Shown in pieces: positions 3,970-50,598 of a DNA stretch of 64,000 bases. How positions within the stretch are numbered: position 1 is the stretch's first letter; every line of letters begins with the position of its first letter. The position numbers and the translations under genes were made by a program. Origin of the DNA: Candidatus Electrothrix rattekaaiensis (GTDB taxonomy: Bacteria; Desulfobacterota; Desulfobulbia; Desulfobulbales; Desulfobulbaceae); the NCBI GenBank assembly GCA_032595675.1, contig JAVQMD010000001.1, positions 2,016,640 through 2,080,639 of the forward strand. The letters are read 5' to 3'. The notes beneath the pieces are model-generated. The model made no database searches and was not told where the DNA came from. It worked only from the letters and a program-made list of their open reading frames with translations.

Positions 3970-4262
3970 AGCTTACTCGCTAAAAGTTATGCAGGTGAAT
4001 TCTGCAAAGATTAGTCTGATTAGTCTGAAATGAAAGGATGAGTAAGGACAGAAAAGAGGTGGGAAAAACTGCATTAACCGTCCCTGTTCAAGGCAACGGG
4101 CGCGACTCACAAGGAGCTGGGGCGTTTTTTATCCTTTTGACGTACTCCTGCAGAACAGCTTCCTGTCCCGGTGCTTCTTTCTTCTCGTGATTCGTCCACT
4201 ATAACAGGAACAGCGTGCTTGCGTAAATGTTTTTCCTGTGACGGCCTCATCACTTTGGGCAT
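3970..4262. other. Intergenic stretch, no gene supported
   Basis: Nothing convincing is seen on either strand. A 51-codon frame on the minus strand (4107-4262) starts inside the T-run of the csp terminator with no ribosome site and was not accepted. The part next to 3969 should hold the promoter for the ABC-F gene, but no clear boxes stand out. Confidence 0.4.
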
Positions 4263-4889: not shown

Positions 4890-5135
4890 TTACGCGTTTT
4901 TCTTAAAGAAAAGAATAATACCGGTTACAGCCACAGCGAGCAGGCCCAGCCCTGCAATACAACCGACATAGGGAGCGATAATCTCCCAGGTATGGATAGA
5001 GACGAGAAATTCCTTTATATCCTTGCTATAGACCCCTGCTTTTCTGAACAGTAAGGCACAGCCGGAAACTCCGAGAAGAATAAATAACGGAGCAAAGGTG
5101 ATTGCTGTTATGCGGTGCAATTTCCTGATTTTCAT
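4890..5135 (-). CDS. PepSY-associated TM-type small membrane protein
   Basis: An 81-residue protein with two hydrophobic segments (about residues 10-30 and 55-76) and the start KIRKLHRITAITFAPLFILL, a pattern typical of PepSY-associated membrane proteins. The short periplasmic stretch has VSIHTWEI. Such proteins are often found beside OmpR-type two-component systems. It lies 98 bases downstream of the histidine kinase on the same strand, so it is probably in the same transcript. The start has GGAG 7 bases upstream. Function not known; a modulating role on the neighbouring kinase is only a guess from position. Confidence 0.75.
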   Translation of the reverse strand: MKIRKLHRITAITFAPLFILLGVSGCALLFRKAGVYSKDIKEFLVSIHTWEIIAPYVGCIAGLGLLAVAVTGIILFFKKNA

Positions 5136-5233: not shown

Positions 5234-6655
5234 TCAAATGAGTCGCCCTTCCTGCGTCGTATCATGGAGAGGCAGGGTTATGGTAAAACAGGCTCCGCCG
5301 AATTCCGCATTGCAAACTTCGATCTCCCCGTGATGGCTTGCAACAACGGCCTTGGTTATACTCAGACCGAGGCCGGTTCCCTTAATCGTTTTCACGGCTT
5401 CAGATCGGTAAAACTTATGAAAGACCTGTTCCAGTTCATGTTCCGGGATGCCAATCCCAGTATCCTGGACAGTCAGTACCACCTTGTTATCACGGCATTG
5501 CAGAGACACGGACACCGATCCTTTCGGATGATTATAATAGACCGCATTCTCCAAAAGATTGGACACACCCTCTGTCAAGGCATCCTTATCTCCTAGGACG
5601 ATCATCTCATCATCTTCCTTCCGACGAATTTTAATATGATGTTCCTTGGCCAGAGGGCGAATAAGCGCTATTGCATTGTCAAGACAGCTATTTAAAGAGA
5701 TCAAATGAAAGGAGGTGGACAGGATACCCGAATCAATCCGGGCCAGAGTCAGCATACCGTTGACCTGCCTCAGCATGGTATCGGAAACCGTTCTGACTTC
5801 CCGCAGACTCTCGGCATATTCCTCCCCTGAACGTTCCTTCATCAGGGCGATATCGCATTCGGCCCGGATAACGGCCAAAGGTGTTTTCAGCTCATGAGCC
5901 GCATTGGCGATCAGTTCTTTTTCCGCATCAAAGGCTGTTTGCAGGCGTTCCAGCAGAGAGTTAAAGCGTTCCGCAAAAACATGCAGTTCACGGGCAAACC
6001 CGTTGGGGCCTATTCTTTTTCCCAGATTCTTATGGGTGATTCGTTCCAAGGCATCGGCAAAAATCGTTAACGGGCGCAAAGCATGTGATGATATAAGGTA
6101 CCCAACGATCCCGATCAGGAGAATAAAAAACGGGGTGAGCAGATAAAAAAAACGCTCCAGCTTGGAAAGTATTGTAACGGTTTCCGCCAAGGTCTCGGCT
6201 ACCCGTATGGAAACCTCTTTATCCTGTATTGCAAAGTCGTTCCTAAGCACAAGCAACGGCTCCCCGGCAGGGCCTGTTGTTCGATAGAGCCACTCCCGCG
6301 CTTCCGCATCATAGGATTCCGGCGTGTCGGAGATCAAATTAAAGAGGGAAGGCTGCATGGACGGGGAAGTCAAATACAAATTTTCATCTATAAACACCTG
6401 ATAATAATGTCCTGAACTCGGGATGGAGTATTCACCCCGGGCAACTTCGGCAAGCTCGACCTCAATATAGTTTGCATGTGCATGGATGAGCCCTTTCATA
6501 ATCTGCAATTTGGAGTGCAGTACATTAGTAACCGAATGAAAAGCAACCTTTTCGAACTGATGCAGCAGAACAAAATCAAGCAGAATGACCAGCACTGCAC
6601 CTGCAAGAAGAATCCAGAGCACCAGCCTGCCTTTTATTGAGCCTCCGGCTTTCAT
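5234..6655 (-). CDS. Membrane sensor histidine kinase (OmpR-system type)
   Basis: 473 residues: TM1 about 10-32, a periplasmic sensor region 33-165 with no family I recognise, TM2 about 169-190, a HAMP-like linker, the phospho-accepting box ANAAHELKTP (His254), and the ATPase domain with N box NLLENAVYYN, DTGIGIPE and GTGLGLS. The kinase phosphorylates the regulator encoded just upstream; its ATG (6653-6655) overlaps the regulator stop (ATGA), so they are translationally coupled. The C-terminal half resembles metal- or envelope-stress sensors (FYRSEAVKTIKGTGLGL), but the signal cannot be read from sequence. The linked regulon candidates (small Met- or Cys-rich secreted proteins) would fit an envelope or metal signal. 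Confidence 0.9.
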   Translation of the reverse strand: MKAGGSIKGRLVLWILLAGAVLVILLDFVLLHQFEKVAFHSVTNVLHSKLQIMKGLIHAHANYIEVELAEVARGEYSIPSSGHYYQVFIDENLYLTSPSMQPSLFNLISDTPESYDAEAREWLYRTTGPAGEPLLVLRNDFAIQDKEVSIRVAETLAETVTILSKLERFFYLLTPFFILLIGIVGYLISSHALRPLTIFADALERITHKNLGKRIGPNGFARELHVFAERFNSLLERLQTAFDAEKELIANAAHELKTPLAVIRAECDIALMKERSGEEYAESLREVRTVSDTMLRQVNGMLTLARIDSGILSTSFHLISLNSCLDNAIALIRPLAKEHHIKIRRKEDDEMIVLGDKDALTEGVSNLLENAVYYNHPKGSVSVSLQCRDNKVVLTVQDTGIGIPEHELEQVFHKFYRSEAVKTIKGTGLGLSITKAVVASHHGEIEVCNAEFGGACFTITLPLHDTTQEGRLI

Positions 6656-7648: not shown

Positions 7649-7677
7649 ACCGGAACAAAGATGAACACAAGATGAAG
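7649..7677 (-). promoter_or_regulatory. Direct repeats with 11-bp period, likely OmpR-family operator
   Basis: Read on the minus strand: TTCATCTTGTG followed directly by TTCATCTTTGT and then TCCGG. The repeat starts are 11 bases apart. The site ends about 70 bases before the ATG at 7579. The same core (TTCATSTT) in the same period is found at 42638-42681 and 43232-43275. Confidence 0.65.
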
Positions 7678-42637: not shown

Positions 42638-42681
42638 TTAATGTTTTGGTAATGTTCTGTTCATCCTCTGTTCACCTTTTG
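42638..42681 (+). promoter_or_regulatory. Four 11-bp direct repeats, likely OmpR-family operator
   Basis: TTAATGTTTTG, GTAATGTTCTG, TTCATCCTCTG and TTCACCTTTTG stand end to end, each 11 bases. The last ends 57 bases before the ATG at 42738. The same arrangement is seen at 43232-43275. Confidence 0.75.
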
Positions 42682-42737
42682 TCAGTTACAGTACAACATG
42701 ATCGTTAATTTGTAACACAACAAAAGGAGTCGGCAAA

Positions 42738-42995
42738 ATGAACAGAAAACAACAACAGCAGCCACGGCCTGTAAGCAGCAAAGAGTATGACTGCCCTCTG
42801 ACCAGGAAGCACGTATTTGTTCAACTTAAAGGGAACAGGAACACTGTTCCCGGAGAGCCTGCGGTCTGCTCCAGTATTGGTGAATGCGGATGCAATGTTG
42901 TCCAAATTATCTACGGTATGAGCTACACTGTGGACTGGCATAAATGCTGTCTCTATAGCCTGTTTAAAGGACAGGACAGCAACCTGGACCATTAA
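42738..42995 (+). CDS. Small Cys-rich hypothetical protein
   Basis: 85 residues, AGGAG 9 bases before ATG. No signal peptide is obvious: the start is polar (MNRKQQQQPRPVSSKEYDCP). Six cysteines in YDC, AVC, GECGC and KCC, which suggests metal binding or disulfides. Unknown family. The frame on the opposite strand (42705-43217) is not preferred because this one has a ribosome site and a clear operator upstream. Confidence 0.6.
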   Translation: MNRKQQQQPRPVSSKEYDCPLTRKHVFVQLKGNRNTVPGEPAVCSSIGECGCNVVQIIYGMSYTVDWHKCCLYSLFKGQDSNLDH

Positions 42996-43231: not shown

Positions 43232-43275
43232 TTCATGTTCCGGTCATGTTCCGTTCATCTTCCATTAACCCTGCA
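43232..43275 (+). promoter_or_regulatory. Four 11-bp direct repeats, likely OmpR-family operator
   Basis: TTCATGTTCCG, GTCATGTTCCG, TTCATCTTCCA and TTAACCCTGCA follow one another with period 11. Distance to the next ATG (43345) is about 70 bases. Compared with 42638 the core is TNATGTTYYG. Confidence 0.75.
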
Positions 43276-43344
43276 TGGATTATTGTTCGGCGCAAATAAG
43301 AACAAAAAAGAGGATTAACCTTTTCAACATAAGGAGTAAGCAAG

Positions 43345-43977
43345 ATGAAGAACATGAAGAACAAAAAAAGTCTTTTGGTAACAGCAGTATTAACCGTTAT
43401 CTTTTTTACCGGTTCTGCAAGGGCTGCGGATTTTGCGACAGAAACACAAGACCTGATTACGCAGACCATTACCCGGGTAGTTGAAGCCAACATCAACAAT
43501 GCAGCTGCCGAGAATGTGTCCGGTCAAACGGTGGTCAAGGACATACAGAACAGCATGATGACAAAAATAAGTGATGCTGTGAAACAAAACACCGCTGCGA
43601 GAAAACGTGCGAATGTTGTCCAAACCTGCATGGAATGCCGGGTGATGCAGCCCATAGAGGTTGTTGTGGCCGGGAAGAGCACGCTTCTTAGTGCGGATGT
43701 CCAAGAGCGTATCAATCAGGCAATGGCGAAGAAGATCAAGGAGACCATTCGCGTGATCTCATCCGATCCTGCGGTAGCACGTATGGTGCAGGATCGAATG
43801 ATGGTGCCGCGCATGGCCGCCAGCCCACTTCGGCAGGATATGCAGCCCTTTATGATGAGCAAATTACTGACTGATCCGAATGCAATGAATATGATCGGCA
43901 GTCAGGCCGACAATACTAACAGGCAAGCGGATAAGTTAACCTGCACCGCCGGTGATGCCGGGTTCCCGAACTGCTGA
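43345..43977 (+). CDS. Secreted Met-rich protein, unknown
   Basis: 210 residues from ATG 43345 (AAGGAG 12 bases and AGTAAGCAAG closer). Signal peptide 1-27 (KKSLLVTAVLTVIFFTGSAR then AADF). Helical mature part with about 17 Met residues, several paired (NSMMTK, RMMVPRM, FMMSKL, NAMNMIG), a C-x-x-C (TCMECRVM) and two further Cys near the end. Met pairs and C-x-x-C suggest binding of soft metals such as copper(I), which is inference. It is the first of three close genes. Confidence 0.6.
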   Translation: MKNMKNKKSLLVTAVLTVIFFTGSARAADFATETQDLITQTITRVVEANINNAAAENVSGQTVVKDIQNSMMTKISDAVKQNTAARKRANVVQTCMECRVMQPIEVVVAGKSTLLSADVQERINQAMAKKIKETIRVISSDPAVARMVQDRMMVPRMAASPLRQDMQPFMMSKLLTDPNAMNMIGSQADNTNRQADKLTCTAGDAGFPNC

Positions 43978-44159: not shown

Positions 44160-44483
44160 ATGAAAAAGATAATAATACGATTGGTCTTAGGACTCTTTGC
44201 CGGTTTAATACTGTCCGGCTCCGCTTCCGCTGCGGTACAGATAGACACTACGAGCATTCAGACAACGGTTGATAAGTTAATCACCAAGATGCAGCAGGAA
44301 ACGATCAAACAAAATTTTGCGGCCCTGCTGCTGCAAAACGAAATGCGGGCCAAGATGACGACCGAGCGTGTGCCGCAAAGATTTATGCAGAGCAGCATTC
44401 AGCCTATTGTCCAGCCAGCTATGTTAGAGAGGATTCGTGCGCAGATGCAGGCGCAGCAGATGGAGAGCATGGCAACACGTTAA
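44160..44483 (+). CDS. Secreted Met-rich protein, second copy type
   Basis: 107 residues with signal peptide (IIIRLVLGLFAGLILSGSAS then AAVQ). Helical, about nine Met (NEMRAKMTTERV, RFMQSS, QAQQMESMATR) and no Cys in the mature part. Its design resembles the 43345 protein: signal, TTVDKLITKM-like helix, Met clusters. The ATG follows AGAGAAAAGAAC, a weak ribosome site. A good terminator closes the group at 44557. Confidence 0.55.
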   Translation: MKKIIIRLVLGLFAGLILSGSASAAVQIDTTSIQTTVDKLITKMQQETIKQNFAALLLQNEMRAKMTTERVPQRFMQSSIQPIVQPAMLERIRAQMQAQQMESMATR

Positions 44484-50429: not shown

Positions 50430-50598
50430 GTATCACCTCGTTGTTTTTCCGTTCATCCTCCTTTCGCTATTTTTATATACAGGTATTCTCAACCGGATGT
50501 CTACAAGAACCTTGATAAAAAAAAGAAGTGCAACAGATCTATCCGGCTACCTGACTGAAAAGGGGGAAAATATTATTTTTTCCGGCGCAGATCATGCC

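Follow-up and report, generated by a model that had tools for sequence, protein, structure and literature searches.

In the Pho box read by PhoB, 11-base-pair (bp) direct repeats replace the -35 box a few nucleotides (nt) 5' of the -10, and the PmrA/BasR box consists of TTAA-type 11-bp direct repeats. Two-component systems may also control a small conserved periplasmic protein in envelope stress, as in ygiW(visP)-QseBC, and among RNAs the anti-Shine-Dalgarno small RNAs CcsR/alpha-r14 and LhrC carry CCUCC hairpin loops, occur in tandem copies and have stress regulators upstream. In Vibrio cholerae the VC1638-39 two-component system controls the small periplasmic protein VCA0732 under envelope stress (PMC5636140). 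Here we compare with these systems a locus in a 64,000-nt stretch (the window) of the genome of Candidatus Electrothrix rattekaaiensis (G000), a cable bacterium, in which a two-component system at 7329-5234 on the minus strand is preceded by direct repeats that recur 35 kilobases (kb) away. We consider it very probable that this system is the regulator of the repeat arrays, and that it activates its own operon together with a set of scattered targets.

The site at the operon, array C (7655-7676, minus strand), is formed of two 11-bp direct repeats, TTCATCTTGTG (7676-7666) and TTCATCTTTGT (7665-7655), followed by TCCGG (7654-7650) and the -10-like hexamer TACTGT (7649-7644), which begins 5 nt past the last repeat. 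On the plus strand, array A (42638-42692 with its hexamer) consists of four repeats, TTAATGTTTTG GTAATGTTCTG TTCATCCTCTG TTCACCTTTTG (42638-42681), then TCAGT and TACAGT (42687-42692), and array B (43232-43286) likewise consists of TTCATGTTCCG GTCATGTTCCG TTCATCTTCCA TTAACCCTGCA (43232-43275), the last of them degenerate, then TGGAT and TATTGT (43281-43286). In all three arrays the repeat period is 11 bp and a TAnnGT hexamer follows after 5 nt, a spacing that recurs in relatives. A preliminary description of the window had noted that the minus-strand repeats share core and period with the distant arrays and precede the gene next to the regulator, and both observations hold: period, gap and -10 all match, and the gene is a secreted open reading frame (ORF) of 53 codons with ERYERG-type repeats (7579-7418, minus), with the regulator gene (7329-6652) next. 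Array A lies 5' of the gene for an 85-amino-acid (aa) Cys-containing protein (42738-42995, plus) and array B 5' of that for a 210-aa secreted protein with a CMECR motif (43345-43977, plus). The gene for a 107-aa secreted protein at 44160-44483 (plus) had been listed there with the distant genes for comparison of expression, but no array was found in the sequence checked 5' of it, leaving two distant arrays and not three; as it lacks an array of its own it can only be a co-transcribed regulon member, probably together with the 43345 gene. A relationship between the 43345 and 44160 proteins was not supported (E-value 0.14).

The arrays were scored with an independent profile of 33 columns built from 38 unique sites, including no site from the window and no ortholog of the regulator promoter. 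Array C ranked first in the window with 36.3 bits at 7676, followed by array A (32.1 bits at 42660), with array B at 18.1 bits (43254), while 150 dinucleotide shuffles of the window gave a highest score of 20.3 and a mean best score of 5.0. Arrays C and A thus stand by score alone and array B is not significant by score alone; being below the shuffle maximum, it rests on its conservation, since the array, including the degenerate fourth repeat and TATTGT at equal distance, is kept in all five genomes that carry the 43345 gene (the window's own, G003, G004, G006 and G007). The third-ranking candidate site in the window (50441-50473, plus; 20.2 bits) comes after an oppositely oriented gene, and 3' of it there is no convincing gene, just a GIALIPI-type repeat ORF.

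Using the pattern TTMATNTTNNGTTMATCTTNNNTNNGNTANNNT with at most two mismatches, we detected 52 sites, distributed over 12 of the 57 related genomes compared, and the reversed pattern, used as a control, gave none in all 57. These 12 comprise the eight genomes of the genus together with G013, G016, G026 and G034, and a regulator ortholog at least 73% identical is present in 11 of them (all but G005). In all 11 carriers the nearest upstream array is 71-3150 nt from the regulator, with distances computed from coordinates of 71 (G001), 78 (G002), 229 (G003), 315 (G000 and G006), 458 (G004), 470 (G007), 1526 (G013), 2724 (G026), 2797 (G034) and 3150 nt (G016), and an array 5' of the regulator operon is kept in seven of seven same-genus genomes with the regulator. 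Autoregulation is indicated most directly by G001 and G002, which lack the small ORF; there the regulator gene comes first, at 103 and 110 nt, respectively, from the start of the site. Among genes directly after sites, the sole regulator gene found was this one. What the sequences themselves show is a set of conserved repeats at a fixed distance from the -10, with the sites linked to this regulator.

The distant arrays can also be joined to this regulator independently, through a locus that is contiguous in relatives. In G007 the homologs of arrays A, B and C all lie within ~0.8 kb, with C facing the regulator operon and A and B facing the 85-aa-type gene and a 211-aa gene on the opposite strand, and the arrangement in G004 is alike; the homolog of the 85-aa gene adjoins the regulator in both. 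In G007 the 211-aa gene is followed by the homolog of 44160, a transposase-like ORF lying between the two on the opposite strand. Homologs of the 43345 gene occur in five of the 57 genomes, all of the same genus, and the best homolog is ~1.4-3.8 kb from the regulator in G003, G004, G006 and G007; G006 has a second, partial match elsewhere (1.1e-20, one internal stop). As the distant secreted genes divergently adjoin the two-component operon in G004 and G007, the 35-kb separation in the window most likely arose when a once contiguous locus was rearranged.

The regulator (225 aa; orthologs start at MKI/MKV) scored over the cut-off for both Response_reg (PF00072, 102.9 bits) and Trans_reg_C (PF00486, 87.4 bits), giving it the receiver and winged-helix domains of the OmpR/PhoB type. 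Regulators of this type bind tandem direct repeats ~11 bp apart, and such repeats are present here and linked to the regulator as its putative binding sites. Receiver residues D8, D51, T79 and K101 are invariant in 12 sequences; conservation of the receiver residues, and of most of the recognition helix, extends as far as G056 and a Nitrospirae metagenome-assembled genome (MAG). Orthologs are 85-93% identical in the six other same-genus genomes, 73-75% in four genomes from two further genera within the family, and 63% in G056, and the best paralog in the window's genome, among 51 scored matches, reaches 46%. The regulator scored below the cut-off of every named family compared, with 250.8 vs 279.2 bits for the heavy-metal family cztR_silR_copR, 188.3 vs 296.2 for the PhoB equivalog, 188.8 vs 330 for PmrA and 177.8 vs 345 for QseB. 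It is followed by a sensor histidine kinase of 473 aa (5234-6655, minus) with HisKA and HATPase_c domains, whose best NCBIfam match, cztS_silS_copS, is also below cut-off (213.3 vs 292.55 bits), and by a PepSY_TM-like membrane protein of 81 aa (4890-5135, minus; Pfam score just under cut-off), which is found 3' of the kinase in G006 and G007 as well. The 53-codon ORF gave no Pfam match, and a 74-aa reading of it no Pfam or NCBIfam match; its counterpart is longer (102-106 aa) in G004 and G007, and broken or absent in G001, G002, G003 and G006. Nine loci of named response-regulator relatives (L164-L170, L172 and L206), drawn from 80 loci kept, had no strict-pattern site at up to two mismatches, with one in L206 at three, and a home-made DUF5666 profile found nothing in six-frame translations of the named loci, in a search where positive controls matched. 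On a contig of a Nitrospirae MAG (L164:1-92) with a 61% identical regulator, a tail that looks DUF5666-like by eye opens the contig upstream of the regulator.

We sorted the 52 sites by the feature that follows, by eye where no family matched. Seven precede the regulator operon, nine DUF5666 proteins (nine of the 40 target ORFs scanned), seven RNA-like elements and one the 85-aa gene of the window. A further 17 precede small repeat proteins that are secreted, most of them rich in Tyr with repeats of the RYEYRG type; one of the 17 is a 56-residue Asp/His/Arg-rich protein and one is partly masked in the data. Five precede remnants that kept the leader and lost the frame, and four precede other secreted or envelope proteins (an outer membrane efflux protein in G016, an SH3 domain protein, a weak B_lectin match and one unmatched protein). 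Elsewhere in the window's genome the same site stands 5' of DUF5666 genes, a Tyr-rich secreted protein gene and putative small RNAs. With a 4-nt gap and at most one mismatch, the pattern occurred at nine places in seven of the 57 genomes, with one control match (G010). These add four DUF5666 genes (G000, G001, G002 and G006) and small RNAs in G004 and G007, the remaining three being in G038, outside the group, at G006:4212744, a repeat of a site found with the 5-nt gap, and in G001:C204. Of the DUF5666 genes over cut-off in the 12 genomes, 21 in all, 13 by hand count have an array directly 5', and among the other eight are genes further along array-led clusters in G016, G026 and G034; G017, G018, G027, G042, G043 and G056 have over-cut-off DUF5666 genes and no site of the pattern at up to two mismatches. 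At G000:C3:111181, G002:C108:8551, G004:C1:476096 and G007:C1:4675684 the leader of a Tyr-rich gene is kept, its frame is broken, and a shared membrane-protein gene lies downstream; arrays at such broken frames are decaying regulon members.

The putative small RNAs led by arrays with the 5-nt gap are at G000:C1:2148203, G003:C51, G005:C226 and G001:C184, and those with the 4-nt gap at G004:C1:763895 and G007:C1:5045579. Each is ~85 nt with two hairpins after the promoter, the second having a terminator-like 14-15-bp stem, a 17-18-nt loop with a CCUCC-type stretch and a U run after it; in the window's genome (G000:C1:2148123-2148235, minus; L067 ~4112-4236) the loop is CACCUCCUUU, an anti-Shine-Dalgarno sequence, and the design is shared with G001, G003, G004, G005 and G007. 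Four of the RNAs folded singly gave z-scores of -4.3 to -5.5, with no shuffle as good, and 18 aligned hairpins showed both-side changes at six of 14 pairs, although these are not 18 independent sequences as several are tandem duplicates in one genome. G006 (L245:1417-2760) has ~15 tandem hairpin copies at ~85-nt spacing 3' of an array-led DUF5666 gene, and G000 (L066:4285-4697) has five at the same spacing after a double array, where the DUF5666 ORF seems to have been lost. No Rfam family was found at the array-linked hairpins (loci L066, L067, L078, L093, L097 and L100). In G000 an Acido-Lenti-1 RNA (L067:79-124, minus; 56.6 bits) lies 4 kb off the L067 hairpin and is unrelated to the arrays. 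The small RNAs would be transcribed and would pair with Shine-Dalgarno sequences, and we tentatively suggest, as a possibility rather than an expectation, a cable-bacterium-specific envelope programme that couples Tyr/Arg-rich repeat and DUF5666 proteins with small RNAs copying the 16S rRNA tail (CACCUCCUUU). If true, one signal would both remodel the envelope and block translation of other messages.

In the mechanism we propose, the phosphorylated regulator would bind the 11-bp direct repeats (TTMATCTTCYG) as a head-to-tail dimer, with two dimers at four-repeat arrays. The repeats would occupy the place of the -35 box, 4-5 nt 5' of the -10, and RNA polymerase would be recruited there. This is predicted to activate the regulator's own operon, the 42738 and 43345 secreted-protein genes and, via read-through, 44160, and further the DUF5666 genes, the Tyr/Arg-rich secreted repeat proteins and a few small RNAs. 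Envelope or metal stress as the signal is a guess, prompted by the kinase being nearest to metal sensors, though below cut-off, and by the presence of one efflux protein (G016) and many secreted proteins among the targets.

The 11-bp period in the -35 place and the geometry to the -10 would equally suit Pho boxes read by the PhoB of this genome, with the local two-component system merely one target. However, no array at up to three mismatches occurs in 18 kb of the pst region, which holds PstB over cut-off at G000:C2:429591 and a PhoB-like regulator at 436809; the local regulator is below the PhoB cut-off, and 45 of the 57 genomes have no site, making this very improbable. That a different OmpR/PhoB-type regulator binds the arrays, alone or with the local one, draws on the many paralogs and on G005, which has sites and where the regulator was not found, but arrays neighbour the regulator in every genome where its identity is at least 73%, this is the only regulator gene to follow a site, and no array lies around the 46% paralog; we judge it distinctly unlikely. 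That the regulator represses through the arrays could be argued from autorepression being common and from the sites touching the core promoter. This we hold to be quite improbable, as the constant 4-5-nt gap to the -10, with repeats replacing the -35 box and no recognisable -35 otherwise, is the geometry of an activator and favours activation. Finally, the similarity could be put down to chance in T-rich promoter sequence, given that the word TTCAT is common and that TCATNNNNNNTTCAT has 60 loose matches in the genome; the profile scores against shuffles, the counts of 52 and 0 and the conservation refute this, and its probability is negligible.

Several points weigh against the local system as activator of the arrays. 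The support comes from sequence comparison, with binding and expression being predicted, and the search pattern was composed after many sites had been seen. Since all 12 genomes fall within a single family, part of the co-occurrence reflects shared descent. G005 (assembly 69% complete) has three sites and a best regulator match of just 36%, and G056 has the 63% ortholog and no site at up to two mismatches, with a look-alike at four mismatches 5' of a DUF5666-regulator operon. Array B scores below the best shuffle, two of the 52 sites look like chance (one 5' of a phosphofructokinase gene and one without an ORF), and we know of no function for DUF5666 or the Tyr-rich proteins.

The preliminary description had proposed that the regulator controls itself and the distant secreted genes, and comparative genomics supports this, with the array kept in all seven genomes and the genes near the regulator in four relatives. 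Its further suggestion of a small unreported regulon stands as to unreported: searches within the main text of five cable-bacteria papers (PMC10926707, PMC11976967, PMC11247825, PMC13047784 and PMC10030654) brought up no comparable two-component system or response regulator, and no passage on a regulator of envelope genes. It fails as to small, given the sites before DUF5666 genes, Tyr-rich protein genes and small RNAs. Cable bacteria are reported not to have been isolated in pure culture (PMC13064052). A defined site, a regulator and a target list would offer a starting point for studying how secreted envelope proteins are tuned in these bacteria, and for existing transcriptomes they predict RNA 5' ends just past the -10 hexamers, co-expression of the scattered genes and new small RNAs.

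Set beside the described systems, the locus shares with the PhoB regulon an OmpR/PhoB-type regulator and 11-bp direct repeats in the -35 place near the -10, but differs in repeat sequence and targets, in having no array at pst and in scoring below the equivalog cut-off. The TTMAT core and 11-bp period resemble the PmrA/BasR box, which also belongs to an autoregulated envelope two-component system, and BasR is among the PDB relatives of the regulator; unlike PmrA/BasR, however, the regulator reaches only 188.8 of 330 bits, and no lipid A modification gene was among the targets found here. CzcR/CopR/SilR are the best NCBIfam match for both regulator and kinase, each below cut-off. As in ygiW-QseBC and VC1638-39 with VCA0732, a two-component system would control a small conserved periplasmic protein, although here there are many more targets and the target domain is DUF5666, at most a candidate BOF-type (OB-fold) protein and with no significant relative in a PDB sequence search. 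Lastly, the hairpins here are without an Rfam match and lineage-specific in sequence, but have in common with CcsR/alpha-r14 and LhrC the CCUCC loops, the tandem copies and the stress regulators upstream.
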